Shown piece by piece: positions 4,203 through 30,622 of a stretch of DNA of 41,180 nt. How positions within the stretch are numbered: the first letter of the stretch is position 1; the number at the start of each line of letters is the position of its first letter. The notes under the pieces are model-generated. The model made no database searches. It was not told where the DNA came from and saw only the letters and a program-made list of their open reading frames with translations. Source of the DNA: a virus. The DNA lies in IMG/VR virus record IMGVR_UViG_3300008459_000118, positions 1-41,180 of that record; one strand, given 5' to 3'. The position numbers were made by a program, and so were the translations under genes.

Positions 4203-4204
4203 CG

Positions 4205-5058: not shown

Positions 5059-7299
5059 TTAAACGTGCCCTTCTCCAAAATTATCTGCAATGTTTGGCTC
5101 AGCTACTAATCCAGTTGCAATCTGTACAGTCGTTTCCATGCACTCCTTTGTAATCTCAGAAGCTTTTTGAGCATGCTCTGTCTTTGCGTTGATTACGAAC
5201 TCATCGTGAATCTGTAACATGATACATGCATCCAATCCTTCCTCCTTAAATCGTTTATGAATCTGAATGGCCGATCTATTCATAATAGATGCTGCTAGTG
5301 ATTGTATCTGAAAGTTTTTACAGTTGTTTAGTCCATTCTTGTACTCCATACGAAGCTTCATCAGCTGTTGAGTTTGGTCAGGTGTCTTGGCCATTCGTTT
5401 CATCTGAGAGAATGGTCCTGGTTCAATAAGACTGTTCTCAAACTTTTCGTAGATACGCTTCACTCGATCTAAGTGTCGAATACGTCCAGTCTTGTTTCTA
5501 ATGAAACCAAACGTCTGAGCTCTAAGGTGACTATCACTCATCCACTTTGCTAACTCAGGGAAACCTTCTAGGTATCCGTCAATCATCTTTTGTGCTTCTC
5601 TAATGTCGATGTTGAGCGATTGACCGATCTGCCACGCACCTGCTCCATAAGGAATAGCAAGCGCAATACTCTTTGCTCTCTGTCTAAGTTCTGGACGTAG
5701 GTTCTTGACATAGTTATCATCGCTTTTCTTTGCCGACATGCCTTTAAGTTTAAACGCCTGAATAGCCACTCTACAATATAAATCCTCATTGTTAATAAAT
5801 ACGTTAATTAGATTAGGGTCATTACTTACGGATGCAAATACTCGAGGCTCCAAAGAGGACTGGTCACAGATAATAAACTTTCTACCATCCTCAGCTTTCA
5901 AAAAGCTACGAATGATGTTATTGTATCTGAGTACTAACTCACTTTGCTCTCCCTCTTCCAACACACGAGGTAGCTGTTGGCAGTCGGAGCTAAAACGGCC
6001 TGAGGTAGTTCCGTGTTGTTTGAAGTACCAGTAATACCTTCCATTCTCGTTTCCGTCTAAGAAACGATCAACGTAGGCTGATTGTATCTTGTTTAGTTTG
6101 TTGTAGTCTCTCAGCTTAGCAGCCCAAGCATGGTCTTTATGTATGTGTTCGATGAAGTCATCGTCAAACTGATCTGTTCCTTTCTTAGTTTGACTGATAG
6201 GCTTTATTCCAACATACTTGAAGCACATTTCAGACAGCTGCTGCTTACTGCTTATGTTAATGAATGCACCCTCCTTTTGTTTAAGGAGTTCCAAACTAAT
6301 AGCAATCTTATCTTGCTCGTTAAGATCCTTAGCATCTCCCGTCTGCAAGAATTTCTGACCAGCATCTGAATCTATAAGCTGTGACAGCTTTTCTTCAACC
6401 AACTTACCGTAATGTCCTCTCTTTTTAGGTGGGTGATTTGTAAGTGCTCGAGCTACAACCCACTGCTGTACTTGTGGTACCTTCATTAAGTCTGAAATAA
6501 TCTCTTGCTCAAGTCTCGTGATGTCTGCTGAAATTTGTTGCTTTGTCTTGGTGATGAGCTCGATATCTAGTTCTGTTCCAGTTTCTTCCATTTGGATCGT
6601 AACAGTCTTATATAGTGGCATCACCTCTTCCTCAAAAAAGAACTCCCACAACTCCTGCTCCTTGAGTATTGGCAGGTAGTAAGTCATAACTCGTAGTGTT
6701 AAGTCGGTATCGGCAGCTGCATATTCTCCTAGTAAGTTCATGTCAGCTTTAAAGATCTCGAAGTTGGTTTTAGTAATACTACCACCGTTCCTTTGAATAG
6801 ACTCCTTTAGCTTTACTTGCTCTTCGTTAGCTTCCTTCTCAGCATCTAATCCTAACTCATCTTGAATCTCGATAGCAATGTCCTTCAAACCAAAAGGACC
6901 ATCCTCTTGCAGAGTGTGACGCAGTAACATCGTATCACAATATAAATCATCACGAAGATCAATTCCGTAGAAGTTCTTCGTATACCGAACGTCGAAAGAT
7001 GCGTTGTGCATTACTAGCTTCTTACCTTTAAGCATGCTGATAAGATGCTTTGCAATGTCATCACACTTCTTACCTCCAATATAGGAGTCCACAAGTGATT
7101 GTGAATCTACATCCCAATATCGAGTTGGAAAGTAGTAACCTTCCCCAATATCCGCAGAAACAGAAAAACCAATGATCATCCCGTTTCTAGGATTAACACT
7201 AGTCGTCTCGGTATCGTATGCGATAATGTTTCCGTTCTTAATATAGTTAGCTAGTTCTACGACACCAGCCTCGTCGGTTATTATCTCGTACTTCTTCAT
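5059..7299 (-). CDS. polA: DNA polymerase I family (family A) with 3'-5' exonuclease
   Basis: The 746-residue protein has an N-terminal DEDD exonuclease (Asp29 and Glu31 in AYDTET, Asp103 in NASFDVRY, Tyr193 to Asp197 in EYAAADTD) and a C-terminal palm and fingers. Motif A is CDQSSLEPR (Asp479), motif B is RAKSIALAIPYG (Lys543, Leu547, Tyr551) and motif C is QIHDE (His698, Asp699). There is no N-terminal 5'-3' exonuclease; that activity is encoded separately at 22915-23967. All catalytic acids are present, so this should be the replicative polymerase. Leu547 aligns with Phe762 of E. coli Pol I. It starts one base after the stop of a 46-residue membrane protein, implying translational coupling. 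Confidence 0.97.
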   Translation of the reverse strand: MKKYEIITDEAGVVELANYIKNGNIIAYDTETTSVNPRNGMIIGFSVSADIGEGYYFPTRYWDVDSQSLVDSYIGGKKCDDIAKHLISMLKGKKLVMHNASFDVRYTKNFYGIDLRDDLYCDTMLLRHTLQEDGPFGLKDIAIEIQDELGLDAEKEANEEQVKLKESIQRNGGSITKTNFEIFKADMNLLGEYAAADTDLTLRVMTYYLPILKEQELWEFFFEEEVMPLYKTVTIQMEETGTELDIELITKTKQQISADITRLEQEIISDLMKVPQVQQWVVARALTNHPPKKRGHYGKLVEEKLSQLIDSDAGQKFLQTGDAKDLNEQDKIAISLELLKQKEGAFINISSKQQLSEMCFKYVGIKPISQTKKGTDQFDDDFIEHIHKDHAWAAKLRDYNKLNKIQSAYVDRFLDGNENGRYYWYFKQHGTTSGRFSSDCQQLPRVLEEGEQSELVLRYNNIIRSFLKAEDGRKFIICDQSSLEPRVFASVSNDPNLINVFINNEDLYCRVAIQAFKLKGMSAKKSDDNYVKNLRPELRQRAKSIALAIPYGAGAWQIGQSLNIDIREAQKMIDGYLEGFPELAKWMSDSHLRAQTFGFIRNKTGRIRHLDRVKRIYEKFENSLIEPGPFSQMKRMAKTPDQTQQLMKLRMEYKNGLNNCKNFQIQSLAASIMNRSAIQIHKRFKEEGLDACIMLQIHDEFVINAKTEHAQKASEITKECMETTVQIATGLVAEPNIADNFGEGHV

Positions 7300-12213: not shown

Positions 12214-12573
12214 TTACAATGTAACTGTAAAGATTTCTTTAATTACGATTTCATCTGCCTCTAAAGTACCACCAGCCTCTTCACGCAACTGCACAGCTAC
12301 TGCATAGTCGATTGAAATACCTGGCTTCTTCTCAATCCACATTTCTGTGATAAATGTTGATGACTTGATCTCGTTGTGCTTGTTTCTCTTTACTCGAAAC
12401 ACTGCTACTTTTACTTGTTGATTCATGCTACTTGAATTACTATTTAATGTTAAACCTCCATAAATGGTTGTACCTGGTGAGGCAATGTAGCTCGTACCGG
12501 TACTTAGTGTAGCGTTAAGACTACTACATCCCGTTGTTAAAGTTCCTGATGTGATATTAGTATTATACTCCAT
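12214..12573 (-). CDS. Unrecognised beta-rich protein in the modification operon (119 residues)
   Basis: I used ATG 12573; a TTG five codons upstream would give an extended form. The N-terminal third is low-complexity Ser/Thr/Gly/Asn ([21 protein letters not shown]), typical of an exposed beta or virion-type region. The rest is a regular beta pattern ([46 protein letters not shown]). It overlaps the folE stop by 11 bases. The low-complexity part is out of character for a metabolic gene, so it may be a structural protein inserted here. Confidence 0.55.
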
Positions 12574-13210
12574 AACGACTTTGATCAATTAAGTTAAAAA
12601 ATTCTTGTCTTGTGCCAATCTCATTGGTCCAGAAGTATCCAGACATTTGTGATGTCTTCATTACACTGTCTTGTTTGATTCCGCGACACTTAACACAGTT
12701 GTGTTGTGACTCGATTACTACTGCAACTCCTCGATTACCTATACACAAACGATCAACGTGGTCGTGAATTTGTTTAGTCAGTGACTCTTGGATATTCGGA
12801 CGACGAGAATAGAAATCTACAATACGGTTCAACTTACTTAATCCAATTACCAAATCACCTTTATCTTTTCCTGGAATATAAGCTACGTGAGCTACTCCTG
12901 AGAATGTTAAGTTGTGATGTGCACACATACTCATTACTGGAATACGAGTCTGACAGATAAGCCCTGTGTATCCTTCGTCGTTAGGGAATGCTGTTACTTC
13001 TGGTTCCGGTGCAATTGATCCAGCAATTAGGTCATTCACCCAAGCCTTAGCTACTCGGTACGGAGTACGATCACTGTGTGGATCTGCTTTCCAATCGAAA
13101 CCTAGTGCTGTTAAGAATCCTCCATAGTACTCAGCAGCTTTTTCGATCATCTGCTTTTTTTCTTCCTCCGTACGAGGAATGTTTCCATTTGCTTTTGTGA
13201 TTAACTTCAT
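12563..13210 (-). CDS. folE: GTP cyclohydrolase I
   Basis: The 215-residue enzyme converts GTP to 7,8-dihydroneopterin triphosphate, the entry step of 7-deazaguanine (and folate) synthesis. Signature segments are [11 protein letters not shown] near 48-57, [10 protein letters not shown] (Cys96, His98, His99), [20 protein letters not shown] near 123-142 and [14 protein letters not shown] (His170, Cys172). The zinc ligands Cys96, His99 and Cys172 are in place, so it should be active. It opens 3 bases after the kinase stop and feeds the QueD and QueE enzymes of the same operon. Confidence 0.97.
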
Positions 13211-13213
13211 AGT

Positions 13214-13690
13214 TTAATAGTTGTGTAAAATTTGTAATCTTTCTTCGAATATACTAAAAATCTTCTGTCCTTCCAACTCTATTGGCTTGTTATCTGCAAT
13301 ATCGAAGGATTCGGTGTCTTTATCTGCGTTACGGATCTCGTAGCGTCGTTTTCTTACTTCAGTCGGTACTTCTAACCACACCAACTCTGCCTCAGGAAAA
13401 TGCTTGAGCAAGTACTCTACTATACTTGACTGTCGAATACCATCCACAACGATGTTGTGTACTTTGATTAAGTCGTTAGCCATAAGGTAGTGGTAGTCTT
13501 CTATTCTCTTCAAGATTCTTTCAGCTATCTGTTGATCGAGGTGTTGTGTGTTTTGTAGTTGTGTGCGATCGTTGCTATTGATGAGCTCGCGAACAATGTC
13601 TGAAACTACTATTCTGTGAGCTCGTGCTTGAAATGAACTCTTACCGCTACAGATACGACCAAAGATTAAAATAAGTTCTGACTGCTTCAT
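13214..13690 (-). CDS. P-loop kinase, nucleotide-kinase-like
   Basis: ATG 13690 (MKQSELILIF) is chosen because it shares ATGA with the upstream QueD-like stop and places the P-loop at its usual distance; the protein then has 158 residues. The Walker A motif is GRICSGKSS (Lys17), followed by VVSDIVRELI, a VHNIVVDGIRQ strand, and a lid-like basic region EVPTEVRKRRYEIR. This is the layout of small kinases such as dephospho-CoA, adenylate or dNMP kinases. In this operon it might phosphorylate a nucleotide linked to the modified base, but the substrate cannot be read from the sequence. Confidence 0.75.
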   Translation of the reverse strand: MKQSELILIFGRICSGKSSFQARAHRIVVSDIVRELINSNDRTQLQNTQHLDQQIAERILKRIEDYHYLMANDLIKVHNIVVDGIRQSSIVEYLLKHFPEAELVWLEVPTEVRKRRYEIRNADKDTESFDIADNKPIELEGQKIFSIFEERLQILHNY

Positions 13691-14028
13691 AGTTCTACTA
13701 TACCAAAAAATTCTCCATCTTCCGACACTGAGCATCGACAGAGTCCAAAGTAATTTAATAAATCTTCTGCTATCATTTCACAAGACATAGCTCCAAAGTT
13801 GCAGCATCCATAAGCTGGATCGTACCAGGTACTTGCTATGTACTTTTTGATCTTGTGCTTGAAATCAATAAACTCAATGTCACGATCTCCGTGAGATACT
13901 TCAGCTCTGCACGCTATTTGAAAGGTATGTCTGTGCAAGTGTGCTAGGTAATCTACGTGTGGTAGATTGCAGTCAGGCCAGTGATGCAAGCCTTCTACGT
14001 TTATATGTACTTCTACGTATTTTTTCAT
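13687..14028 (-). CDS. QueD/PTPS-like T-fold protein (second, divergent copy)
   Basis: The 113-residue protein resembles 6-pyruvoyl/6-carboxy-tetrahydropterin synthases in order of elements: an N-terminal strand, GLHHWPDC (His15, His16), LHRHTFQIACRAEV (His32, His34), IEFIDFKHKIKKYI (the [M/F]xxDFxxLK helix) and NFGAMSCEMIAEDLLNYF. The usual C-x3-HGH and DH motifs are changed or missing, so the chemistry may differ from the QueD at 15736-16212. Similar proteins occur in other phages with no function assigned that I know of. The stop overlaps the kinase start (ATGA), and the start is 1 base from the preceding stop. Confidence 0.55.
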   Translation of the reverse strand: MKKYVEVHINVEGLHHWPDCNLPHVDYLAHLHRHTFQIACRAEVSHGDRDIEFIDFKHKIKKYIASTWYDPAYGCCNFGAMSCEMIAEDLLNYFGLCRCSVSEDGEFFGIVEL

Positions 14029-14510
14029 TACTTCTTGTCTTTATCTTTTTGCCATTGACCATCGTACAAATCCGCTGGAGTATTCTCTAGCATGATTATC
14101 TGAGCTACTCGTGATCCCTTCTCGATTCGGATATCTTGATCCACAATCATAACTGCACCCATCTCCTCTACCTCAAATCCTGGATCATAAACTCCGGATG
14201 TGATAATTGAACCGCATCGAAGAATAGATGAGCGGTGACGAATAAAGGCTGTGCGGTTCTCTGGAAGTTTGCATCCTTGATCGAATGTTAGTGAGTAAGT
14301 TCCTCGTGTTAGGTGAAACATATACTTTCCCGTTGGTGTTAGGGTTGGAGGCACCTCTTCGTAGTCTTCTACTAGAGTCTTATCTCTAAGGACCATTCCT
14401 CCTTTAATTTTCTTTACTGCTTTTAGTGTCAGATCATATCCGACTTGTGCTTTGCTACCTAGACCGTTAGTTTCTAAGTGATCTGTAACCTGGTGTGAAT
14501 TTAATAACAT
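14028..14510 (-). CDS. dUTPase / dCTP-deaminase superfamily protein
   Basis: The 160-residue protein carries the trimeric-barrel signature RHRSSILRCG near residue 91, followed by TSGVYDPGFEVEEMGAVMIV (the GVxDPGF segment of this superfamily) and SRVAQIIMLE near 133-142. The closest choice is a dCTP deaminase or dUTP diphosphatase, enzymes that keep uracil out of DNA and supply dUMP. I cannot separate the two activities by eye. It sits among deazaguanine genes and the P-loop kinase, making this stretch a nucleotide-pool module. Its first 44 bases overlap the end of the small HEVLH gene. Confidence 0.8.
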   Translation of the reverse strand: MLLNSHQVTDHLETNGLGSKAQVGYDLTLKAVKKIKGGMVLRDKTLVEDYEEVPPTLTPTGKYMFHLTRGTYSLTFDQGCKLPENRTAFIRHRSSILRCGSIITSGVYDPGFEVEEMGAVMIVDQDIRIEKGSRVAQIIMLENTPADLYDGQWQKDKDKK

Positions 14511-14634
14511 AACTTTTTATATTTGAATTTAATACCTCAACAATTGTTTGGTAGTTTGTAACTACAGTTTCAATCAAGTTGGTGTGACTGAAACTATCCG
14601 GACAAAGTCCTATAAAATGTAATACTTCGTGCAT
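14467..14634 (-). CDS. Small protein with an N-terminal HEVLH motif (55 residues)
   Basis: The ATG at 14634 is supported by a GAGGAG ribosome site (14641-14646) with a 6-base spacer, inside the end of queE. The protein begins MHEVLHFIGLCPDSFSH: an HExxH motif followed by G and a third His at residue 17. This resembles the HExxHxxG metal site of zincins but lies at the extreme N-terminus, with no room for the usual fold before it. The rest is helical (TNLIETVVTNYQTIVEVLN). It may be a metal-binding fragment or a partner protein; function unknown. It overlaps the next gene by 44 bases. Confidence 0.6.
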   Translation of the reverse strand: MHEVLHFIGLCPDSFSHTNLIETVVTNYQTIVEVLNSNIKSYVIKFTPGYRSLRN

Positions 14635-14635
14635 C

Positions 14636-15412
14636 TTAAACTCCTCTTTTTGTATCGTAAGCAATGATGTGATCTCGTCCCGTCATATTGTAACCACGCT
14701 CAGCACACATCTCAAATACTATCGGATACATCCTAATAAGCTCTTCACGAGTATCACCCGCTGGCATAATATACGTTTTTTCTTTTGGAATCAAAAGCTC
14801 GAGTCTAAGATTTTCTATCTCTTCGAGGTTCTTTTCTGTACCATCCCATACCGGCTTGTAGTGATAGTCTGCGTGATAAGTTATCATCTCTTTCATTGCC
14901 ATCTTGTTGAGTCTGAACTTATCATGCTGCTTAATCATCTTCTCATCCGTGATCGTCCCTTGCGGCGTAGGAGTACCCAAAACGGGAACGCTATTGCTAA
15001 ACTTAGGACTAAGACTGATAAGCCCAATAGGATAATCAGTAGCAATAAAATGTGAACCCTCAGTCTCAATAGTGATAAGAATGCCTTTTTCATGTGCAAA
15101 GTGTGTTAGCTCGTTTACTAGAGCTGGATGCATTGTAGGCGATCCACCAGTAAGCATCATCTCCTTGATGTGTGGATTCTCGTCGTATATCTTTGTGATA
15201 TCATTAAACGTGAATGTTCCCTTCTCTGGATGAATACTAGTGTACCAGCTGTCACACCATCCTCCTTCTCCAAAGAAACATCTGTGAGTGCATCCGGTTG
15301 TTCGTACTGCGATTGTTGGTCGGCCAAATCTTGACCCTTCTGATTGTACACATCGATAGAGTTCAACTATCGGTAGTACTTTATTGTAATCTGTAACTCT
15401 TCCTGGTGTCAT
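14636..15412 (-). CDS. queE: 7-carboxy-7-deazaguanine synthase-like radical SAM enzyme
   Basis: With ATG 15412 (TAATATG junction with the gene before) the protein has 258 residues; an in-frame ATG eight codons upstream is possible. It has the QueE N-terminus (VELYRCVQSEGSRFGRPTIAVRTTGC), an SPTMHP-type segment (MMLTGGSPTMHP), ITIETEGSHF and LSPKFSNS, all QueE landmarks. QueE turns 6-carboxy-tetrahydropterin into 7-carboxy-7-deazaguanine using SAM and a 4Fe-4S cluster. The cluster loop is C-x3-C-x7-C (CTHRCFFGEGGWC) instead of the usual C-x3-C-x2-C, an insertion of about five residues. The other landmarks argue that it is active. Confidence 0.9.
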   Translation of the reverse strand: MTPGRVTDYNKVLPIVELYRCVQSEGSRFGRPTIAVRTTGCTHRCFFGEGGWCDSWYTSIHPEKGTFTFNDITKIYDENPHIKEMMLTGGSPTMHPALVNELTHFAHEKGILITIETEGSHFIATDYPIGLISLSPKFSNSVPVLGTPTPQGTITDEKMIKQHDKFRLNKMAMKEMITYHADYHYKPVWDGTEKNLEEIENLRLELLIPKEKTYIMPAGDTREELIRMYPIVFEMCAERGYNMTGRDHIIAYDTKRGV

Positions 15413-15413
15413 A

Positions 15414-15668
15414 TTAAAATGGTAATTCGTCGTCATGTATTGATCCCACGGACTCAGCTCCTTTACTATCGGGGGTTGTATTATTTCCAAAGTAGCGATC
15501 TAAGAACGATTTAGGGTACTTTAAAATTAAACCCGAGTAATTTGGATTCTCAACTTCATGGGCTGTTGCCTTTATTCCCTTAGCTTTTGCAGCGGCATAA
15601 ACTTCCTTTCCTAGTTTGGAACCAGCAGGTTTGCCAAGATACTCGTATAGTGATAAATAGTTTTCCAT
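15414..15668 (-). CDS. Small protein with an SSB-like acidic C-terminal tip (84 residues)
   Basis: The N-terminal part is compact and basic (YLSLYEYLGKPAGSKLG, KEVYAAAKAKGIKA) with a VENPNYSGLILKYPKSFLDRYF segment. A disordered linker then ends in DDELPF. That ending closely resembles the DDDIPF tip by which bacterial SSB recruits DNA-maintenance proteins. The protein may thus dock on the same partners as SSB, or bind DNA with its basic part, although this is inference. It lies 1 base before queE. No family name is known to me. Confidence 0.6.
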   Translation of the reverse strand: MENYLSLYEYLGKPAGSKLGKEVYAAAKAKGIKATAHEVENPNYSGLILKYPKSFLDRYFGNNTTPDSKGAESVGSIHDDELPF

Positions 15669-15735
15669 GTAACCTTATTTTGTAATTGTGTAAATTATTT
15701 TAACATCTCCTACTGTGCTTGTAGAAGTCCAGTAA

Positions 15736-16212
15736 CTATCCTTCATAGATGCTTGAGTTTTTATCGTTTTCAAAACATTCAACTTTAATGCACTTACAAC
15801 GTCCTGCATCTGTTTTAGATAACACGTCATTGAATTTATCGTACACCAGCTTTGCACAAGACTCAGCTCCCATCTTCTCCATGAAGTGAACCTTAGCAAG
15901 TCCCATCTGACCTAGCTGTTCAAATATATCTGCATACGGATCATCCTTTTGAATTAGTAGTGTATGATCCCACATATGATCCATCCACGACTTTAATCCA
16001 TTACCAACTGGTGCATCTTTGAAACCTCCGTAATCAACTATCCAGTTCATATCGTCAAGTTGATTCTCTTCTAGTGGTTCGTTTGAAGCAAACCAAACCT
16101 TAAACTTGAGTGCATATCCGTGTAATAGCTCACAATGTGAGTGTGATGCTTTCCATTGACGTATTGCAACAGAATAATTGTCAAATAACTTTGTCGAAAT
16201 GTATCTACCCAT
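15736..16212 (-). CDS. queD: 6-carboxy-tetrahydropterin synthase
   Basis: ATG 16212 gives 158 residues. T-fold landmarks are FDNYSVAIRQW, HSHCELLHGYALKFKVWF (catalytic Cys27 with His24, His26 and His31), MNWIVDYGGFK (the [M]xxDFxxxK helix), WMDHMWDHTLLI (Asp-His pair) and GAESCAKLVYD. QueD makes 6-carboxy-tetrahydropterin from the FolE product. The usual HGH is HGY here, so one zinc ligand must come from another His. The start overlaps the preceding stop (AATGGGTAG). Of the two QueD-type proteins in the operon, this one has the fuller set of catalytic residues. Confidence 0.85.
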   Translation of the reverse strand: MGRYISTKLFDNYSVAIRQWKASHSHCELLHGYALKFKVWFASNEPLEENQLDDMNWIVDYGGFKDAPVGNGLKSWMDHMWDHTLLIQKDDPYADIFEQLGQMGLAKVHFMEKMGAESCAKLVYDKFNDVLSKTDAGRCKCIKVECFENDKNSSIYEG

Positions 16213-16396
16213 TTTTCTTTGATTTTTTTGATTTTTTAATATCAGTATGATACTCCGTATCAATGCTTGCTAGTTCAATAGTAATGTACTCAGGTGTTAG
16301 TTGATCTAATCCTATTCCCGTACATACTGTAATTGTGTTCTTTTTTGCCATAACCTTTTGATGTAACTCCCAGTCTACTATGCAGCTGTTCCTCAT
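16205..16396 (-). CDS. Unrecognised small protein in the modification operon (63 residues)
   Basis: The start at 16396 is supported by an ATGA overlap with the preceding stop. It has a beta-type core (NTITVCTGIGLDQLTPEYITIELASI) and a lysine-rich tail (KKSKKSKKNG) typical of nucleic-acid contact. No family is recognised. The short overlap with queD suggests coupled translation. Confidence 0.55.
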   Translation of the reverse strand: MRNSCIVDWELHQKVMAKKNTITVCTGIGLDQLTPEYITIELASIDTEYHTDIKKSKKSKKNG

Positions 16397-19378: not shown

Positions 19379-21450
<2,072 letters not shown>

Positions 21451-21519: not shown

Positions 21520-22890
21520 TTACTTTGCTAAATTCTGTAATTCTGAAAATTTATTTGCAAGAGCTTTTCTTACAACCTCAGAATCATTTTGCATCATGGC
21601 CTTTGCTTCTTTACCTAGAACTGTAGTCTCAGCAAAGATTTCAATTCTTGAAGCCGACATATTCATTCGACTTGGGAAGGTTAAACCATCCGGACCGAAT
21701 CGATTCTTGATAACGTGCCATCTTCCAGTACCACTAATCTTATCGGCAACCTTTCGTGATAAGGATACAACAAAGTCGGCTACCATCACCTTAGAGTAAG
21801 ACTCTGCAATCTTATCTGCTTCAATGATATCTTCCTCTAGTGCTGATCGGTTTGCTTGTGATGCTGTGTAGATTGGAATTTGATATGTACCAGCCATACC
21901 TCGCAAGTCTTCATAAATGTTACCCAGCATGATATCGTTTCGTACAGCTCCCTTTGAGCTTGTATCTCTTAACAAGTCGGCGTAGTCTACTAACACTAGA
22001 TCAGGTTGGAAGCCTTGCATGATGCATTTGTCAAGGTGTGCTGATAGCATTGTCACTGTAGCTGTCTTTGTTGGATAGTACTTTATGATCAACCTTCCTT
22101 TGAGTTTGTTTAGTTTCTCAACAACCTCTTCCTGGTGAAACTTTAGGTCTTGTGATGGAATCCCGGTATAGTGTGAATCAAAGCGTGCACCTACGTAGGT
22201 TTCGGAAAGCTCTAAAGTATAGTAGATGACGTTAAGCCCACTCTTGACAGCAGCTGCTGCTATGTTTACTAATGCCATTGACTTACCAATACCAGCTGGT
22301 GCTACGAATACTCCCATCTCGCCACTACCCAAACCACCATCCATGATCTCATTGATTACGTCCCATGGTGTTGGGATTGTATTTCTTTTATTCTCAACAA
22401 ACCTTGCACCAATGTCATCTAGGTATTCGTGACCTATGTTTCGATCCGTTCCTGCTTTCATAGCTTCATCGATAGCCGTTTTGATATCATCATACTTTCC
22501 GGACTGAAGCAGTTGAACTGACTGCAGTATAGCTTCTTTGATCTTTTGATTTTTACAGAACTCCAATGTCCGATCTTTGATAAAATCAAGATCAGTCGAG
22601 TCTGCATATCGGACTACCTCTTTTAGGTTTTCTACAATAGCTACCTTAAGCATAGGTTCCTTCTCTTCGTCCACGTGAATCTTTAACGCTTCAAGTGTTG
22701 GTGGGGACTTATACTTATCAAAGTACTCCATAAGAGTCTGAGCTATCCATTGAGATGAGTCTGACGAAAAATACTTTGGATCTATGATATCGTGTATCTG
22801 TTGAAGAAACACCCTATCCTTAATCAAAAGTGTCAGTACCTTGTTCTGAAATGCTGTTCCGTAAAATTGTAATGTATCTTGTTCTTGCAT
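21520..22890 (-). CDS. DnaB-type replicative helicase
   Basis: The 456-residue protein has a helical N-terminal part (residues 1-150) and a RecA-type ATPase. Walker A is APAGIGKS (197-204, Lys203) and Walker B is LVLVDYAD (Asp302). A YYTLELSE segment (near 223-230) and an IYTASQANRS sensor motif (near 335) fit the DnaB family, as in T4 gp41 and T7 gp4. It should form a hexamer that unwinds DNA at the fork. There is no primase domain, and I see no primase elsewhere in the window. It follows the flap exonuclease in the replication block. Confidence 0.92.
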   Translation of the reverse strand: MQEQDTLQFYGTAFQNKVLTLLIKDRVFLQQIHDIIDPKYFSSDSSQWIAQTLMEYFDKYKSPPTLEALKIHVDEEKEPMLKVAIVENLKEVVRYADSTDLDFIKDRTLEFCKNQKIKEAILQSVQLLQSGKYDDIKTAIDEAMKAGTDRNIGHEYLDDIGARFVENKRNTIPTPWDVINEIMDGGLGSGEMGVFVAPAGIGKSMALVNIAAAAVKSGLNVIYYTLELSETYVGARFDSHYTGIPSQDLKFHQEEVVEKLNKLKGRLIIKYYPTKTATVTMLSAHLDKCIMQGFQPDLVLVDYADLLRDTSSKGAVRNDIMLGNIYEDLRGMAGTYQIPIYTASQANRSALEEDIIEADKIAESYSKVMVADFVVSLSRKVADKISGTGRWHVIKNRFGPDGLTFPSRMNMSASRIEIFAETTVLGKEAKAMMQNDSEVVRKALANKFSELQNLAK

Positions 22891-22914: not shown

Positions 22915-23967
22915 TTAATCTAGCAAGGTATATTGATCTAACTTTTGAGTAACCTCTCTTATCCACACTTCGATGTTTCTAATTGCATTTGTCATTCCAT
23001 CTTCAAAAATCATTTGATGAAACTTTATCTTTGCTAATTTTGGGACTGAAGATTCTACTGTGGTTATTACTCTGAGTCTAGTGCTCGTTGGTATTCCACT
23101 CTCAGAAAGCTGCATGATCTGGTGGAATAAACGGATGTCGCTTTCTGCTTGAACTACCTTCTCATAGAGCTTCACTTTTGGGTTTTCAATAGCCAATCCC
23201 TTAGCATATTCAATAAAGTCATCAACACTGATGTAATCTGAACCGGTTAGCTTTGGAAACCTGCTTGCTATAGTTTTTGCTCCCAATCCCGATACGCCTG
23301 GAATGTTATCACTATCGTCCCCTAATAGAGCTCGATAAAGTGCGAAGTTGTATGGCATGATGTTGTAAGTCTCATAAACATCATTTGTATAAAATAGTTG
23401 CTTTTTTGTTGGACTCCAAATATGAATACGATCATTCACTAATTGCATAAAGTCCTTATCGGAAGACATGATAAATACCTGAGAATCCTTTTCCTTGAGG
23501 TAGTCTTCTGAGATGTAGGCTATAACGTCATCAGCTTCAACTCCGTCCGAAACTACTGTAGTGAAAGGTAATACTTCAATGTACTCAACCAACCTCATCA
23601 ACTGCTCTCGCTGATTGTCTTCCTTGTCGACTGTTTCTGCTCGATTCAACCTTATCTTGAAGGTACGATTGGCCTTGTACTGAGGGTAAAGCTTTTTACG
23701 CTTTGCCGATCCATCCTTTCCATCAAACACAATGATAACTCGAGTTGGATTGATTGCTTTAATAGCATGTCCAACACTTAATAGAAATCCTGAGATTCCG
23801 CCCACATGCTCACCGTTGATGTTTGTAGTAGGACTTGCAGCATAAGCTCTAATGAAAGTGTTGAGGCCGTCAACAATCAACACTCGAGAATTCTTTGTGT
23901 CTCGTTGATCAGCCCCTTCACCCCTAAGTTTTACTTCATTAAAGTATGCGAGATACTTTTTGTTCAT
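22915..23967 (-). CDS. 5'-3' exonuclease / flap endonuclease
   Basis: The 350-residue enzyme removes RNA primers and 5' flaps. Family motifs are RVLIVDGLNTFIRAY (Asp33), VIIVFDGKDGSAKRK, VEADDVIAYI, IMSSDKDFMQLV and GDDSDNIPGVSGLGAKTI, the helix-hairpin-helix region. The acidic metal-binding residues are all present. It matches T4 RNase H and the free-standing form of the Pol I 5' nuclease, and complements polA (5059-7299), which lacks this domain. It starts 4 bases after the recA stop. Confidence 0.95.
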   Translation of the reverse strand: MNKKYLAYFNEVKLRGEGADQRDTKNSRVLIVDGLNTFIRAYAASPTTNINGEHVGGISGFLLSVGHAIKAINPTRVIIVFDGKDGSAKRKKLYPQYKANRTFKIRLNRAETVDKEDNQREQLMRLVEYIEVLPFTTVVSDGVEADDVIAYISEDYLKEKDSQVFIMSSDKDFMQLVNDRIHIWSPTKKQLFYTNDVYETYNIMPYNFALYRALLGDDSDNIPGVSGLGAKTIASRFPKLTGSDYISVDDFIEYAKGLAIENPKVKLYEKVVQAESDIRLFHQIMQLSESGIPTSTRLRVITTVESSVPKLAKIKFHQMIFEDGMTNAIRNIEVWIREVTQKLDQYTLLD

Positions 23968-23971
23968 AACT

Positions 23972-25117
23972 TTAGTCTTCTAATTCTCCTTCATCTACTG
24001 AGATTTCATCCGGATCAATTAAGTTTTGATCACGATACTTCATCACATAGATGTCACAGATTTTTTTGTAACAGTATTCTTTTAACTCTGGATCTTCTTC
24101 CAGCATAGCTCTCCACTCCTTAGATTGGAATCGAACTTCCTCACCAGTCTCTTCGTTTACTAACGTATACCAAGCACCTGATGCTTTAATTGTTCCGTAA
24201 TCCTTCATAAGAGTCAACCAGCTATTGTAGTCGTCAATTCCTGAGTTAAAGTAAATATCAAACGTGGCTTTCTTGAATGGAGGACCCATACGATTCTTAA
24301 TGATCTGAGCTTCTGTTTGAACTCCAATAATCTGCTCAGTCTTACCTGATCCGCTCTTCAACTTACCTACTCCTTTCAAACGAATACGACAGCTTGCATG
24401 GAAACCTAAAGCCTTACCACCTGATGTTGTGTACTTGTCTCCAAACATTACTCCCATCTTTTCACGTAGCTGAGATGTACACAAAAGCAACACCCTCTGC
24501 TTACCGATAATGTTTGTAATCTTACGCATTGCTTTAGACATTAGGATAGCTTTTGTAGTTGCCCAACCATCCTTCTCGTAGTCTGCATCTTGCTCTACTT
24601 TTGTAGTAGCTGCTGATACTGAGTCTAGTGCAATTGTTACTAACCGATCCTTTGAACTTTTACGTACTGTTTCGATAATGTTTTCGATTGCATCAAATGA
24701 ATCTTCGATTGTCTCTAGCGGAACGTATAACATATTACTAACATCAACCCCTACAGCTCTAAGAAACTCCTCACTTAATGCATTCTCTGTATCGATATAC
24801 ACAGCAAGTCCTCCCTTCTTCTGCGTGTTGGCTAGTGTATGTGCTACAATTAAACTCTTACCAGATGCTTCCATCCCTTGCAGTTCAACAATTCGACCTA
24901 CTGGGAATCCTCCGTTCGGTCGATTTGATATTGCTAGGTCTAGCAGAGAAGATCCGGTTGAAATCCATTCTGTCAAGTCTGTTGGAGCTTCTTCGTCGCC
25001 ATTTAAGAAATGAGCAGCTTTGAAGTCTTTGAACTTTTTGTTTAGGCTGTCTGCTAATACTGAAGCGAGTTCATCCCTTCCCGATATTTCATCGGGCGTA
25101 ACCTTCTGCTTTGCCAT
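23972..25117 (-). CDS. RecA/UvsX-type recombinase
   Basis: The 381-residue strand-exchange ATPase has Walker A GMEASGKS (81-88, Lys87), a VYIDTENALSEEF segment, VTIALDSVSA (Walker B) and LLLCTSQLREKMGVMFGDKYTTSGGKALGFHAS, covering loops L1 and L2. The C-terminal tail is acidic (DPDEISVDEGELED), as in RecA and UvsX. It should load on ssDNA with the gp32-like protein encoded just upstream to drive recombination-dependent replication and repair. It looks closer to cellular RecA than T4 UvsX does, but I cannot measure this here. Confidence 0.95.
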   Translation of the reverse strand: MAKQKVTPDEISGRDELASVLADSLNKKFKDFKAAHFLNGDEEAPTDLTEWISTGSSLLDLAISNRPNGGFPVGRIVELQGMEASGKSLIVAHTLANTQKKGGLAVYIDTENALSEEFLRAVGVDVSNMLYVPLETIEDSFDAIENIIETVRKSSKDRLVTIALDSVSAATTKVEQDADYEKDGWATTKAILMSKAMRKITNIIGKQRVLLLCTSQLREKMGVMFGDKYTTSGGKALGFHASCRIRLKGVGKLKSGSGKTEQIIGVQTEAQIIKNRMGPPFKKATFDIYFNSGIDDYNSWLTLMKDYGTIKASGAWYTLVNEETGEEVRFQSKEWRAMLEEDPELKEYCYKKICDIYVMKYRDQNLIDPDEISVDEGELED

Positions 25118-25122
25118 GTGGT

Positions 25123-25899
25123 TTATGAATTAAATAATGAATCGAATGCTGATGAAATGTCGTCAGTATTGGTTGCTGTAGTTGCTCCGGTGATCGGTGC
25201 AATTGCTGGCTTCGTACCTTGTGCGTCTGCTCCTGCTTCTGGATCTAACCATTTCTGCAACACCTCAGTCATTTCTTCATAAGTCGGCTCTGTGAACAAC
25301 TCTGTGATTTGTTTTTGATTACCAACAATCATCTCTGCAATCTCCTTATCAGTTGTTGCTGGAGTTGTGTTAGGTTTCACTCTTACTGTGAAAGACGGAA
25401 AAGCACCTTCTTTCTCTGCAGCAATATGCTCCACAGTAACATCGCGACCATTCATTAAATCAGTGATGTCACCATAATCTGGATCTGCAATCACACTTAA
25501 AAGTTCTGTGTAGATCTGCTTACCGAAAGCCCAAAACTTAACACCTTCATGCTCTGCACCGCGTACAATAACTGGAGCGTAAACTCGGAACTTTGGTTCG
25601 ATTTTCTTTCCTAGTTTCCAATCATCTTTGTCTCCTGACTTTTTAAGCTTCTCAGCAAACTCTACTACTGGATCAGGACGTCCGAAAGATACCGGAGATA
25701 CCATTGTACGTTTTCCAATCTCGTAGTGGAAGTACATTTCTAAGAATGGATTGTTTTTGTCGAATGCGTAGGGTACGATACGTACTTGTGATTTTCCTAC
25801 TGGTGGTTTCCAAATGAAGTCGCTTGACTTGTTACCACCTCCCGTTGATTGTTGCATTGCTTGCAACTTTGCTTTAATCGCGTCTAAATTAATCGCCAT
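25123..25899 (-). CDS. T4 gp32-like single-stranded-DNA-binding protein
   Basis: The 258-residue protein has a flexible basic N-terminus, then KPPVGKSQVRIVPYAFDKNNPFLEMYFHYEIG (the first OB strands), FRVYAPVIVRG, KFWAFGKQIYTELL, DITDLMNGRDVTVEH and an extended acidic tail ending DDISSAFDSLFNS. Layout and tail match T4-type gp32 (ssDNA cover and recruitment of replication proteins). The Cys/His zinc site of T4 gp32 is not seen. It stands directly before recA. Confidence 0.85.
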   Translation of the reverse strand: MAINLDAIKAKLQAMQQSTGGGNKSSDFIWKPPVGKSQVRIVPYAFDKNNPFLEMYFHYEIGKRTMVSPVSFGRPDPVVEFAEKLKKSGDKDDWKLGKKIEPKFRVYAPVIVRGAEHEGVKFWAFGKQIYTELLSVIADPDYGDITDLMNGRDVTVEHIAAEKEGAFPSFTVRVKPNTTPATTDKEIAEMIVGNQKQITELFTEPTYEEMTEVLQKWLDPEAGADAQGTKPAIAPITGATTATNTDDISSAFDSLFNS

Positions 25900-26003: not shown

Positions 26004-26384
26004 TTATCGCGATAGCTCTTGTATTTTTATCAATCTGCAATTGTAATCTGAATCCGATAACAAAAGTGTGTCTTGATATTTGGTCCAATCAACTCTAAAC
26101 GTCTTATCTAGTACTCCGTTGTTGAGTGATTGTATTAAACTGTTCAAAGCATTAATGCTATAAAACGTATTTGATTCTTTTTTTCTATTGATAGAGATTG
26201 TATCTTTCATTCTCCTTCCGTCACCAGCTACATTGTAAATGCACACAACGTTGTTGGGTGTTTCTACGTAAGAGTAGCATTTCATATTCGTAACATTGTC
26301 TGTTGTATAGGTTTTGTAAACTTCACCTATACATAAAGCTAATCTATCTAAATATGTGAATGTGCATAGTAACTGTGGCTTCAT
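26004..26384 (-). CDS. Unrecognised protein (126 residues)
   Basis: A soluble protein with a beta-rich centre (NVVCIYNVAGDGRRMKDTISIN) and a helical stretch (SINALNSLIQSLNNG), five Cys and many aromatic residues. No family is recognised. It follows the 78-residue coiled-coil gene with a 1-base gap. The 103 bases between its stop and the gp32-like gene hold no hairpin or clear promoter, only an imperfect GGCCAGT direct repeat. Confidence 0.55.
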   Translation of the reverse strand: MKPQLLCTFTYLDRLALCIGEVYKTYTTDNVTNMKCYSYVETPNNVVCIYNVAGDGRRMKDTISINRKKESNTFYSINALNSLIQSLNNGVLDKTFRVDWTKYQDTLLLSDSDYNCRLIKIQELSR

Positions 26385-26385
26385 T

Positions 26386-26622
26386 CTACTTCTTCTCTAT
26401 CGCATCAATCTGCTGCTTTAATTTTCCAATCTCACCATCCATCTTAGCAGCTTGCTTTTCTTTATCTGCCTTTTGCTGTTTTAGTGCTGATACTTTTTGA
26501 TCATCTTGAGCACTAGCTGTAGATTCAAGCTCTTTTAGAGCCTTCTTACGTTTGAACTTAACTTTGTTCTCTCGCAAATAAGCTTCAATCTCAGTTCTAA
26601 TAAATTGTTTTATAGATCCCAT
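26386..26622 (-). CDS. Small coiled-coil protein (78 residues)
   Basis: Almost the whole sequence is a charged heptad-type helix (RKKALKELESTASAQDD, ALKQQKADKEKQAAKMDGEIGKLKQQIDAIEKK). It looks like a dimerising rod or scaffold. There is no enzymatic motif. A class B motif lies 17 bases upstream, which hints at late expression. Confidence 0.6.
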   Translation of the reverse strand: MGSIKQFIRTEIEAYLRENKVKFKRKKALKELESTASAQDDQKVSALKQQKADKEKQAAKMDGEIGKLKQQIDAIEKK

Positions 26623-26656: not shown

Positions 26657-27961
26657 TTAACAAAGTTTCATTTCTGAATATGTTATTCCCTTCTTAATCT
26701 TGACAGGAAACTTATTCAGATCAATACTTTGAGGTATTACTTCCTTTAATAAATAGTCAAGCTCTTCGCTTGGCACGTCAAAAAGAATACTATCGTAGGT
26801 ATAGAGTACTGCAACTGTTTTGTGGTTTTGTAGTTGATCTTGGATTGGTTTCAGAGTCAATACATTGAACTCTGTCTCATACATCTGCAAAAAGTAGTTG
26901 AATAGTGTGTATAAGGTAATGTCCTGATAATTGGCTAATATCAGCTTTCTACCTGATACCGGACTCTCAATGTATCCATGATCTTGAGCGAAGTACCACA
27001 AACGCTCAGCTAACTCTTTTGCTGCTTTGAAAAACGGTACGTGCAAATACTGCTTACTAATTCCTCCATAAATCTGTCTGAATGTAGATTCTTTTGCTTG
27101 TAGTATTTGTGGTTTTGTTGGTGTCTGAGTATCGTGATAATGTTTAGCCAAATGCTCATACACATCCTCAGAACCAAAGTCATACCCAGTGAGTGATGCG
27201 ATTAACCTTGGATGGTATGAATTAAAGTCTAGCTCAACTAAGCTTCCATTCTCAAACCTACTAACAAAGCAATCTCGAGACCCATCATCCTTATTCAAAG
27301 CTGCGAAGTTTATTCCTCCAAACCTATTACTAGGACGTCCGGTGGTTGTGTAATAGTTATACTGGGTATAGCTTTTATCCTCATTTACAGAAAAGGATTG
27401 ACCAAACGCCTCAGTAAACTTTGTAGGATTGATTTGGATACCATTCTTCTCTATGTCATAAAATGCACTCAGTAATTGGTTTTGATAGAAGTCCAGACCC
27501 GGTTGCTTCTCTGCTACATATATTCGTTCAAATAAATCGTAAGCAATATCTTCATGCTTTGGTAAGCTGACAAGTGAACCTAATACATTACAATCTGCAA
27601 TATAGCGGGCGTAGTGGTTCAAAATGCTGGGAGTCTCGAAATTACAAGGTTGATTAAGCTTTAGGTAGTATTGAAGCTGTGCGTCAATAAAACCTCTTGT
27701 ATCATAACCTGCATATTTGAATAGAATTGTATCATAACTATACACATTGCAGTTATAGAGAAAGTTGAAGTCGTCAATTCGAAATATCCCATCCGGATGA
27801 GTCTTACTGACCGAATAAGTTTGTTTAGTTTGAACGTCGATCATAACCAGTGCTACGACGTCACTTACCACTCTATGTCTACGACTATCTTGCAATACCG
27901 GATATACGAACAAAGTTCTTCCAGATAAGCTTTCGAGTTGATGCACGCTGTCTATGATCAT
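26657..27961 (-). CDS. Divergent second family-A DNA polymerase-like protein
   Basis: From ATG 27961 it has 434 residues (a TTG five codons upstream is an alternative). The palm and fingers motifs are readable: TTGRPSNRFGGINF (205-218), motif A VELDFNSYHPRLIA (Asp245), motif B QAKESTFRQIYGG (Lys290, Phe294, Tyr298) and motif C VLYTYDSILF (Asp390). Both catalytic Asp are kept, but motif C is YDS rather than HDE. The N-terminal 100 residues sit where a 3'-5' exonuclease should be, yet I find no DEDD acids. It is about 310 residues shorter than the PolA at 5059-7299. It may be a specialised translesion, priming or repair polymerase. Confidence 0.8.
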   Translation of the reverse strand: MIIDSVHQLESLSGRTLFVYPVLQDSRRHRVVSDVVALVMIDVQTKQTYSVSKTHPDGIFRIDDFNFLYNCNVYSYDTILFKYAGYDTRGFIDAQLQYYLKLNQPCNFETPSILNHYARYIADCNVLGSLVSLPKHEDIAYDLFERIYVAEKQPGLDFYQNQLLSAFYDIEKNGIQINPTKFTEAFGQSFSVNEDKSYTQYNYYTTTGRPSNRFGGINFAALNKDDGSRDCFVSRFENGSLVELDFNSYHPRLIASLTGYDFGSEDVYEHLAKHYHDTQTPTKPQILQAKESTFRQIYGGISKQYLHVPFFKAAKELAERLWYFAQDHGYIESPVSGRKLILANYQDITLYTLFNYFLQMYETEFNVLTLKPIQDQLQNHKTVAVLYTYDSILFDVPSEELDYLLKEVIPQSIDLNKFPVKIKKGITYSEMKLC

Positions 27962-27989: not shown

Positions 27990-28667
27990 TTAGAGCCTAT
28001 TGAATCCAGTAAATCGTCCAAACTCAGTATAACTTTTTACAGCAAATAATATACTGGGTATCTGTCTTTGTGCCTTGAATAAGGTTAGTTCGTTTTGTCT
28101 AGCGATGTAATCGTAAGGTCCTACCAACTTCCATATTATTTTGGCAGACGAATATATCATTGGGTCAATCCCCCGATAAGAACCAATCATCTCCCACTGA
28201 CTGTTATCAATCTCGATTGCATAACTCTCATTGCTGTTTCGTTTTTGTACAAAAAATCTAGCATCTTCCCCCACATCGTAAGCTGATTCCTTTGGTCGAT
28301 AGACGTGTAGCTTTGGTTCAAGGTAATCTAGCTCTTTTATCTCAAACCGCTTTATTGCCTCGTAATCATACTGACTCCTATTAGGATAAACTCTTCGAAG
28401 TCTTTTGTTCGTGTTGTAGTATTCTTCTGAGATTATTCTGTTAGATATTATTGCTGGATCTCCTATTGTATTTACATTATCTTGAGGCTTTACTGGTTCT
28501 GGACCAGTCCATGCGATACCCTCTTTTATGTGATATTCACCAATGTAATCCTTACCGTCTAAAGTAAACTCACCACCTTTTGTGTACTTATGAGTTTCTA
28601 CCCTACTTCGTGGCGAATAACCACTTATACTACCGCTACGATTTTTCTTTTTAGATCTTCTAGCCAT
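27990..28667 (-). CDS. Probable structural protein (225 residues)
   Basis: The N-terminus is strongly basic (MARRSKKKNRSGS), followed by GGEFTLDGKDYIGEYHIKEGIAWTGP, an aromatic-rich segment common in phage virion proteins, then WEMIGSYRGIDPMIYSSAKIIWKLVGPYDY. There is no enzymatic motif. It lies between the hub-like protein and the polymerase, so a baseplate or accessory tail role fits. I cannot name the T4 counterpart. Confidence 0.55.
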   Translation of the reverse strand: MARRSKKKNRSGSISGYSPRSRVETHKYTKGGEFTLDGKDYIGEYHIKEGIAWTGPEPVKPQDNVNTIGDPAIISNRIISEEYYNTNKRLRRVYPNRSQYDYEAIKRFEIKELDYLEPKLHVYRPKESAYDVGEDARFFVQKRNSNESYAIEIDNSQWEMIGSYRGIDPMIYSSAKIIWKLVGPYDYIARQNELTLFKAQRQIPSILFAVKSYTEFGRFTGFNRL

Positions 28668-28681
28668 TACTTTAGTGTATC

Positions 28682-30622
28682 TTATGCTCCTTTATATCTT
28701 GCTACAGTGCTTACTGTAGTTGTCCAGTCCTGCACTGTAACATTATGTTCTACAGATGTGATTTGAAAATCAAAAGCATTTTTTACAGCTGCTGGGATTC
28801 TGGTCGATGTGATTAGCTGTCCAAAAGCAAATCCACCAACTCCATCAACTGTGAATCCAAAGTCAAAAGGTAGTGGCATTCCTTTACACTTTTCCTTAGC
28901 ATCATCATCTTTGTTCACCTTCTCTGTTACTGCTGCAATTGCTGCTTGTGTTGTTGTATTATCTACACAACCGTACATCTCTTCAAAAATTTCATCAAAG
29001 CTTTTATCACCTTCTTCTACTGAGGATGGAACTTGATTGCAGTCACAAGGTGGTGGTGTTGATGCTTTTGGTCTGCACAAATCGACTACCGACTCACCGG
29101 TACCAAAAGCTCTAAAGGCTACTGTATCGCATTTTGAATTTTTTCCATTTTGCTTACTACCATTGGCGTACAATGCCTGCGATTTCATTGCTCCGGTAAG
29201 TTTCATGTCTAATTTAAGATCTCGAATTACTGAATTATTGGCATCAGTTGGCACCGCGTAAACTCCTGCTGGAGTGTAGTTTCTTATGTCTACGATCGAT
29301 ACTAGAGGAACGTCAGTTGGATCCTCACAATTCTCAGTAGTAGAAACTACCTCTAAATACTCGGCAAAATAACCACCGCATACATTGCTTACCTTTTTGA
29401 GTACGTTTTGCAAGAAGGTGCTGATCTTATTATCACCGTCCTCAACTGCCTTTAGCTCTTGCATTAGGAATATGCAGTTAAGCATTACAGTGTTACCAAA
29501 GTCAAACGAATTGCCACCCCAATTATCGTTAGGGGCGTTTTGTTTCCAGTTCCAATCATCTCTACCAATCGCTTGGCTTGTTCTAGGTGATCCGGCAAGA
29601 ACGCATACTCGTGGATCGCCAGAGTCCAACCACCAATTAGATGGTATCTCTATGTTGTTGCTCATAACTTTTCCTATTGTATGCTTTCCTCCTTGTGTTG
29701 GAATTGCGTATGTATTTATTGCTGCCTCTAAGGTGTACCATGAAATATAACCCTCTGTGGTGTCGTAATTTGGATTGAGACTAGCTTGCTCTGAACCTCC
29801 GGCGTCGTTTCTATCTTCACCCTCATAATTACCTGCTGATACTCGCCAACCTTGATCGTGACTACCTCCTACATTATTCCCTAAGTAAACGCAATCCTCA
29901 TCATTTTGAGCTTGCGTATTGATATCAAACAACCACGTGTATAGTAGGCTCCTCTTTGCTGTTACATCCTCTCCTTCCTCTGACTTAAATACACGAGAGC
30001 ATTCACAATCACCAGAAACTGACACTTTACCGTCTTGTACAGCTTCTGATGCTGCTACTAATTCAATAGTACATTCCCAATATCCATCGTTGCTGAGCTT
30101 GTAGCTAAAGTTTGTGATTAAACCCTGCAAACCATCATATGCTGGATTACCTGCTGCTATGCTTCGCATCATACATATAGCCTTACCATCATCCATTGGA
30201 CCTGTTACTGGGCTTGGAGCTACTTGTCCTGTACATGCCACGGACCATCCCCATTGCACTCTTGCGGTCATTCCCGGGATGAAATAACACTGTTGAAGTC
30301 CTATTAATTGCTCGTCTGTAAAGGCTGTAAGGTTTATAGTGCAGGATCTTGTTGTTCCTAATTCACCCTGCTTTTTCACTTGAACTCCGGTGAGTACTGG
30401 TTTCGTTCGGACAAAACCACCTTCATACCGTGTGCCAGATCCTATCTCTAATTTACTCGATAATCGATTGTATTGGCCGCAGCTGGAAGCATAAGAACTC
30501 AAATGAATCCACGGCATTCGTTGAGCTGCCCATACGGGTCCTTTGTTTGTTCCTCTTGCGTTGAGCTCAGCTTGTGTTCCACCTGGAACGGATTTTCCTT
30601 TGAAGGGATTTCCTCCTGCCAT
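28682..30622 (-). CDS. Cysteine-rich baseplate-hub-like protein
   Basis: The protein has 646 residues. The N-terminal part (GFVRTKPVLTGVQVKKQGELG, TINLTAFTDEQLIGLQQCYFIPGMTARVQWGWS) and the C-terminal part (FDFGFTVDGVGGFAFGQLITSTRIPAA, FQITSVEHNVTVQDWTTTVSTVARY) resemble hub proteins of contractile tails (gp27/gpD type), in which the end domain packs around the spike. It has about 20 Cys, including DCEC and CDC clusters, unusual for a cytoplasmically assembled virion protein. Its position after the LysM protein supports a baseplate role. The assignment rests on pattern and context, not a firm family match. Confidence 0.55.
   Translation of the reverse strand: MAGGNPFKGKSVPGGTQAELNARGTNKGPVWAAQRMPWIHLSSYASSCGQYNRLSSKLEIGSGTRYEGGFVRTKPVLTGVQVKKQGELGTTRSCTINLTAFTDEQLIGLQQCYFIPGMTARVQWGWSVACTGQVAPSPVTGPMDDGKAICMMRSIAAGNPAYDGLQGLITNFSYKLSNDGYWECTIELVAASEAVQDGKVSVSGDCECSRVFKSEEGEDVTAKRSLLYTWLFDINTQAQNDEDCVYLGNNVGGSHDQGWRVSAGNYEGEDRNDAGGSEQASLNPNYDTTEGYISWYTLEAAINTYAIPTQGGKHTIGKVMSNNIEIPSNWWLDSGDPRVCVLAGSPRTSQAIGRDDWNWKQNAPNDNWGGNSFDFGNTVMLNCIFLMQELKAVEDGDNKISTFLQNVLKKVSNVCGGYFAEYLEVVSTTENCEDPTDVPLVSIVDIRNYTPAGVYAVPTDANNSVIRDLKLDMKLTGAMKSQALYANGSKQNGKNSKCDTVAFRAFGTGESVVDLCRPKASTPPPCDCNQVPSSVEEGDKSFDEIFEEMYGCVDNTTTQAAIAAVTEKVNKDDDAKEKCKGMPLPFDFGFTVDGVGGFAFGQLITSTRIPAAVKNAFDFQITSVEHNVTVQDWTTTVSTVARYKGA

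Follow-up and report, generated by a model that had tools for sequence, protein, structure and literature searches.

A member of the divPolA1 family of divergent phage DNA polymerases with histidine at the steric-gate position

The DNA studied here is a virus record of 41,180 bases, called the window in this report. An open reading frame on its minus strand (Table 1) encodes 434 residues from an ATG codon. An in-frame TTG upstream would yield 439 residues; close relatives match from the ATG. The initial annotation had described two family-A polymerases in one window, namely this protein and a PolA of 746 residues. Pfam DNA_pol_A matched the 434-aa protein (E 0.0011, 18.5 bits), as did PHROG_17, "DNA polymerase" (E 3e-10). 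Because the reading frame, these two matches and the full PolA were all found, that observation stands. The proposed HMM search against polymerase family A thus gave a match, but one below the gathering cut-off of 34.3 bits. DNA_pol_A was matched at E <= 0.01 by 40 of 53 aligned relatives, the window's protein included, and the frame of gene 1 of Flavobacterium phage immuto passed the gathering score (43.9). No solved structure was found at E <= 1 with the 434-aa protein as a single query; the profile of the 53 relatives found Klenow fragment with E 4e-11. We conclude that the product is a divergent family-A DNA polymerase in a virus of bacteria. It is named divPolA1 below, after a published family.

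Table 1. The divPolA1 gene, its neighbours and the regular polymerase gene in the window. Eligible records are those with enough flank.
Feature	Coordinates	Strand	Remarks
Regular PolA with 3'-5' exonuclease domain	5059..7299	-	746 aa; PF00476 E 1e-60, PF01612 E 1e-13
Ribonucleotide reductase (RNR)	19594..21450	-	PHROG_367 E 1e-130; RNR in 1/2 eligible records
DnaB/gp41-like replicative helicase	21520..22890	-	PHROG_19 E 5e-79; 36/37 eligible records
5'-3' exonuclease / flap nuclease	22915..23967	-	PF02739 E 2e-35; 44/47 eligible records
UvsX/RecA-like recombinase	23972..25117	-	PHROG_97 E 1e-73; 55/56 eligible records
T4 gp32-like single-stranded DNA-binding protein	25123..25899	-	Pfam gp32 E 1.5e-12; 62/64 eligible records
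126-aa protein	26004..26384	-	With divPolA1 in 71/73 eligible records
78-aa ORF	26386..26622	-	Relatives in only 20/75 eligible records
divPolA1 accessory family-A DNA polymerase	26657..27961	-	434 aa; N-terminal part resembling an exonuclease, thumb apparently reduced, palm present, fingers shortened
225-aa upstream neighbour	27990..28667	-	63/67 eligible records
646-aa upstream neighbour	28682..30622	-	No family match; 55/55 eligible records; end of tail/baseplate block

A tblastn search of 50,697 phage records matched 42 records. Members of divPolA1 were found in six of these, namely the record of a 484-kb uncultured phage, that of Microcystis phage Mel-JY01 and four of Flavobacterium phage immuto that are nearly identical. 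The remaining 36 matched with E 1e-5 or weaker and, among the matches listed, mostly inside annotated DNA polymerases. The nearest named relative is immuto gene 1 (tblastn E 2e-37 over 74% of the query, 27-29% identity in the alignments), together with those of Mel-JY01 and the 484-kb phage. With a four-member profile, at least 564 relatives were found among 600 IMG/VR stretches examined, and 80 distinct loci were kept; one of them (L004) encodes a protein identical to that of the window. Residues were counted in 77 proteins, which comprise the window's, those of the three named phages and those of 73 of the 80 loci, four loci being dropped as open at an end and three as shorter than 400 aa. 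At 85% identity, 56 members remained non-redundant. One scan of cellular genomes (84,980 species) matched 80 stretches, six of which encode a relative. All six are in metagenome-assembled or uncultured-bacterium records, and they are probably phage contigs.

Yutin et al. (2024; Virol J 21:200, PMC11348598) named divPolA1 from 14 phages, immuto and its relatives. They described an accessory polymerase beside a regular PolA, PolB or PolC, with conserved palm residues, a truncated thumb and an inactivated exonuclease. The window's protein resembles that description in being related to immuto gene 1, accessory and encoded upstream of replication genes, and also in its conserved palm residues, its short N-terminal part and the regular polymerase gene beside GroEL/GroES. 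Judging from the neighbouring genes, we infer that the divPolA1 of that report is immuto gene 1 and not gene 72. No feature was found that excludes the window's protein from the family, and the identification as divPolA1 is almost certain. The protein is thus a new member of a family that was already known.

Neighbouring genes were counted in 76 records (73 loci and three named phages, the window being left out) with search profiles grown from these same records. As annotated initially, the 434-aa gene adjoins the gp32/RecA block and lies apart from polA. The order divPolA1, 126-aa gene, gp32, UvsX, flap nuclease and gp41 helicase was nearly constant, and all the copies found were on the same strand. 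Further upstream of the 646-aa gene, the window encodes tail sheath, tail tube and baseplate hub proteins and a weak tape-measure match. Gene order as such does not prove joint function.

In the annotated phage collection, the 126-aa gene coincides with divPolA1: both were detected in the same six records, which represent three distinct phages. A model of the protein had a pLDDT of 92.3. VIA found that its first 65-67 residues resemble ferredoxin-like (ACT/RRM-like) domains, with Z 7.0 at most, whereas Foldseek gave no match at E <= 0.001 and no clear fold. In a PHROG scan of this family, seven PHROG families were matched, each by one or two of 48 members, and none of the seven is described.

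In another part of the window, positions 12563-16263 of the minus strand encode GTP cyclohydrolase I, a weak radical SAM match and a QueD-like synthase. These genes perhaps form a deazaguanine pathway, as annotated in immuto, where a DpdA-like transglycosylase is annotated as well.

The AlphaFold model of the window's divPolA1, built with 53 sequences, had a mean pLDDT of 94.5 and a pTM of 0.90. Foldseek ranked Klenow fragment first (1kfd, E 2.7e-18, TMq 0.75), and the named top matches among viral models were DNA polymerases too. A structural superposition had been proposed as a check. By VIA-align, residues 1-432 were superposed onto residues 302-876 of the Bst Pol I large fragment (Z 27.0, rmsd 3.8-4.1 over 409-410 residues). 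In the model, D245 ends the strand 240-246 and D390 is inside the hairpin 383-396, which we take to be the placement expected for Pol I palms. Alignment and model secondary structure therefore agree with the initial annotation in placing the two palm Asp residues as in Pol I. From the model and the alignments, the protein is predicted to fold like the palm and fingers of Pol I and to contain motifs A, B and C.

The residues named initially, D245, D390, K290, F294, Y298 and the motif YDS, were all present in the translation and in the alignment. Alignment with E. coli Pol I placed H250 at E710, the steric gate, and F294 at F762. We take D245, K290, Y298 and N355 to be the equivalents of D705, K758, Y766 and N845, and Q359, Y389, D390 and S391 to be those of Q849, H881, D882 and E883. 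Position 286 presumably corresponds to R754 in the O helix, and R209 to Arg668. D245, H250, K290, Y389, D390, Q359 and R209 were found in all 77 members, and F294 and Y298 in 76 of them. Arg was found at position 286 in six members and was replaced in 71. Position 391 is Ser in 72 members and Ala in five. Thus, Glu710 of the steric gate is His and His881 of motif C is Tyr in 77/77 divPolA1 proteins.

These positions were compared with two control sets, the HMO-2011-type and the window-type PolA, which were grown from two closer PolA pairs and each consist of 80 loci and a reference (46 non-redundant at 90%). The gate residue was Glu in all 162 control rows. In the HMO-2011-type rows, the gate Glu, Arg754 and motif C HDS were present in 81/81. 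The gate Glu and Arg754 were likewise present in 81/81 window-type rows; there, the His of motif C was found in 80 rows and the third residue was Gln in 72 and Glu in eight, one row being cut off at the motif. The enzymes of E. coli, T7, CRP-2 and Enterococcus phage EF24C, one sequence each, also have the gate Glu and the O-helix Arg. The controls thus represent two PolA lineages and four single enzymes and do not cover the whole of family A. The initial annotation had regarded YDS instead of HDE as the oddity of motif C. Tyr in place of His is indeed distinctive, but Ser in place of Glu is not remarkable, because the control PolAs carry HDS, HDQ or HDE; Ser was rejected as the key oddity.

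The gate Glu of Bst Pol I keeps out the 2'-OH and contacts the 3'-OH, and the Ala mutant misincorporates ribonucleotides (PMC7200780). Glu710 and Glu480 of the T7 enzyme have been termed the steric gate (PMC13228545). When the literature was searched for a phage family-A DNA polymerase with a steric-gate histidine, only work on DpoZ surfaced (PMC8599892).

Because the metal ligands are invariant, divPolA1 appears to be a working enzyme. A dN/dS of about 0.09 points the same way; it was obtained in two of four comparisons, with synonymous sites near saturation, and was not computable in the other two. On these sequence data, we consider it quite probable that divPolA1 is catalytically active. 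The doubt comes mainly from the loss of Arg754 and the changed gate: the replacements of Arg754, of Glu710 by His and of His881 by Tyr could cripple catalysis. No biochemistry or activity of divPolA1 was found in the literature searched.

The exonuclease-like part was examined in the 56 non-redundant members. By a hand-made register, exonuclease motif I lies at residues 21-23, where Asp or Glu occurred in 0/56. Acidic residues were found elsewhere in the N-terminus, at Asp25 (41/56), Asp77 (34/56; perhaps the equivalent of Klenow D424), position 57 (Asp or Glu, 56/56) and D93 (56/56), and a DxE motif occurs within the first ~60 residues in 19/56. The statement that no exonuclease acids are recognisable is likely, although these other acids leave it short of proof. 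Since acids remain and the profile comparison aligned only the polymerase part of divPolA1, not the exonuclease-like region, we adopt the loss of exonuclease activity from Yutin et al. (PMC11348598). The loss is likely, and it fits the acid counts obtained here.

The chain is also reduced in other parts. The shorter length noted initially was confirmed, at 434 residues versus about 580-605 in the Klenow and Bst large fragments. Before R209, there are 208 residues in the window's protein and a median of 224 in the family (stop-to-stop frames), versus 344 in Klenow. Short helices in the model would fit a truncated thumb. Between Gly299 and Gln359, divPolA1 has a median of 60 residues (range 57-61), whereas the same stretch has 82 in E. 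coli Pol I, 74 in HMO-2011 and 114 in the window's PolA. About 22 residues fewer than in E. coli Pol I therefore follow the O helix. Alignment, DSSP and length suggest that the missing stretch corresponds to the O1/O2 region. In Pol I, the O/O1/O2 bundle and F771, S769 and R841 have been linked to strand displacement (PMC6846080). Because the O1/O2 stretch is shortened, divPolA1 would be expected to displace strands weakly.

The 746-aa PolA had been described as having standard motifs. It is a full PolA, but its residue at E. coli position 762 is Leu, which was found there in each of the 81 window-type rows. Residue 762 has been associated with slower synthesis and possibly with the life style of the phage (PMC9069017, PMC13228545). 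GroEL and GroES genes are located near this PolA gene (2559-4507, minus strand), an arrangement that has been reported for divPolA1-bearing phages (PMC11348598).

Second polymerases were searched for in 18 records, which comprise 15 IMG/VR records of at least 54 kb behind the kept loci and the three named phages. Another polymerase was found elsewhere in the genome in 16 of them: PolB in 13 and a regular PolA in three. PolIII alpha was detected in one of the 18, alongside PolB. No PolA, PolB or PolIII alpha was detected in the remaining two, G003 (116 kb) and G004 (94 kb), which carry divPolA1 (L026 and L028) and a primase. These records may be incomplete genomes; alternatively, divPolA1 may serve as their main or only polymerase. 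Conversely, among contigs of at least 95 kb with a window-type PolA, ten of 14 carry divPolA1 and four showed none; above 160 kb, it was present in 5/5, two of which were known beforehand (G002 through divPolA1 itself). A primase related to the annotated DnaG of immuto was detected in 11/11 large records tested, immuto's own copy included and the window record outside the set. In the 484-kb record LR756508 (W03; positions 47415-48068, 260623-266900 and 241414-242259), three polymerase families are present, with matches to PolIII alpha and to PolB, the latter in several pieces, in addition to divPolA1. Dual phage polymerases of another kind, PolB with a minimal PolIII, have been described (PMC7824862).

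Yutin et al. suggested that divPolA1 takes part in replication (PMC11348598). Our main reading is that divPolA1 serves as a gap-filling or recombination polymerase together with the flap nuclease, gp32 and UvsX, for which we give a probability of about 0.5. As we infer it, divPolA1 would be an active, distributive and non-proofreading enzyme. With its O1/O2-equivalent region shortened, it would fill short gaps and halt at the downstream strand. It may act with the flap nuclease at Okazaki joints, or extend UvsX/gp32 recombination intermediates, while genome copying would be left to the regular PolA or PolB. As two proteins, divPolA1 and the flap nuclease might do the work that bacterial Pol I does with its polymerase and 5' nuclease domains in one chain. 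The His of the sugar gate and the Tyr of motif C may shift nucleotide selection without abolishing it. The initial annotation had listed priming among the conceivable roles; an obligatory priming role is weakened because DnaG-type primases are present in 11/11 large records.

A polymerase with an altered nucleotide pocket, whose exonuclease acids are probably lost, might instead bypass lesions in phage DNA or copy a modified (deazaguanine-type) template. Both the recombination genes that adjoin divPolA1 and the deazaguanine-pathway genes, putative in the window and annotated in immuto, would suit such a translesion or repair enzyme. However, nearly all loci with enough flank place the gene within a core replication operon, not in a variable region, and we regard this role as unlikely. 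The replacements of Arg754 (71/77) and of Glu710 and His881 (77/77), together with the shortening before the palm and in the fingers, would also be consistent with a catalytically dead polymerase fold that is used as a scaffold, for example to bridge gp32, UvsX and the replisome. Since a scaffold need not keep all the invariant catalytic residues, whereas the metal Asp pair, the O-helix Lys, R209 and Q359 are kept in 77/77, even in members only 24-31% identical to the window's, this explanation is disfavoured, and we think it quite unlikely.

Changed sugar selection is suggested by the gate itself. With His in every member against Glu in every control row, divPolA1 might add ribonucleotides or make RNA/DNA primers, in line with the rNMP misincorporation by the Glu-to-Ala mutant of Bst Pol I (PMC7200780); T7 RNA polymerase likewise is without the gate Glu (Gly542) and has HDS as motif C. 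However, the bulk of His may still keep out the 2'-OH, all members but one retain F294 and Y298, the strand-separating region is shortened, and a DnaG-type primase accompanies divPolA1 in all 11 records, among them that of immuto, from which the primase query was taken. T7 RNA polymerase was not among the matches of the divPolA1 profile at E <= 10, which is weak evidence because T7 DNA polymerase scored only E 0.34. Altogether, we consider changed sugar selection improbable. The same grade applies to the proposal that the rebuilt gate (with Glu changed to His, the His of motif C to Tyr and the O-helix Arg lost) accepts a different nucleotide pool or primer, such as ribonucleotides or mixed RNA/DNA, in a dedicated recombination-primed or lagging-strand step.

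As two family-A enzymes in one genome, divPolA1 and the window's PolA might also be related as a decaying duplicate and its source. However, BLASTP between the two was not significant (best E 0.31), and the divPolA1 profile scored the window's PolA with only E 0.24, compared with 3e-12 or better for the PolAs of E. coli, HMO-2011, CRP-2 and Enterococcus phage EF24C. In addition, PolB is present instead in 13/18 records, and the conserved residues and dN/dS speak for selection. In a tree of 20 divPolA1 members and seven PolAs, the PolAs formed one group with a support of 1.0 (midpoint rooting). The BLASTP result, the profile scores and the tree led us to reject the duplicate, which we regard as highly improbable.

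The deeper nodes among the PolAs had supports of 0.28-0.39, so the tree singles out no PolA lineage as the nearest to divPolA1. The closest BLAST matches outside the family were the Herelleviridae and HMO-2011-type PolAs, with which divPolA1 shares the common Ser in motif C. Unlike divPolA1, these phage PolAs are full-size (680-1023 aa in the three read) and have the Glu gate and the O-helix Arg. In Enterococcus phage EF24C, the gene order is PolA, small gene, SSB and UvsX, and that of Staphylococcus phage SEP1 looks similar, the third gene being annotated as hypothetical. Speculatively, divPolA1 might once have been a replicative PolA and have stayed at its locus when the replicative role passed to a gene elsewhere; the tree does not decide this point. 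Against the window's 126-aa gene and gp32, the Herelleviridae genes at the corresponding position scored below 2 bits and show no detectable homology, so a shared ancestral slot stays a suggestion. As for Klenow and Bst Pol I, divPolA1 resembles them in the predicted fold over residues 1-432, the metal Asp residues, the O-helix Lys, Phe and Tyr and the equivalents of Gln849 and Arg668, and differs in its gate His, its motif C Tyr, the replaced Arg754 and the lack of a fused 5' nuclease. The divPolA2 of barbaviruses is likewise an extra divergent PolA beside a regular PolB and is without an exonuclease domain. Its description sets it apart from divPolA1 by a novel N-terminal domain that replaces the thumb and by variable neighbourhoods (PMC11348598).

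This study adds to the description of divPolA1 the set of changes in the gate, motif C and O helix, compared with controls, as well as the shortening of the fingers, counts for the genes of the operon and the 126-aa protein encoded next to divPolA1. The words "steric", "histidine" and "motif C" are absent from the main text of Yutin et al. (PMC11348598), and the figure alignments or supplements of that report may show these residues. Since the pocket changes are common to 77 members and absent from 162 control rows, the family offers a test of a family-A polymerase without the Glu steric gate. If the proposal of a different nucleotide pool or primer were true, a rebuilt-gate enzyme would serve a large group of phages, most of them uncultured, whose replication genes are T4-like. 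divPolA1 is encoded by no fewer than 80 environmental loci and probably by hundreds; in most, it is part of a fixed replication operon. The distribution also bears on polymerase swapping: the small divPolA1 gene is constant, while its partner enzyme varies between PolA and PolB from phage to phage.
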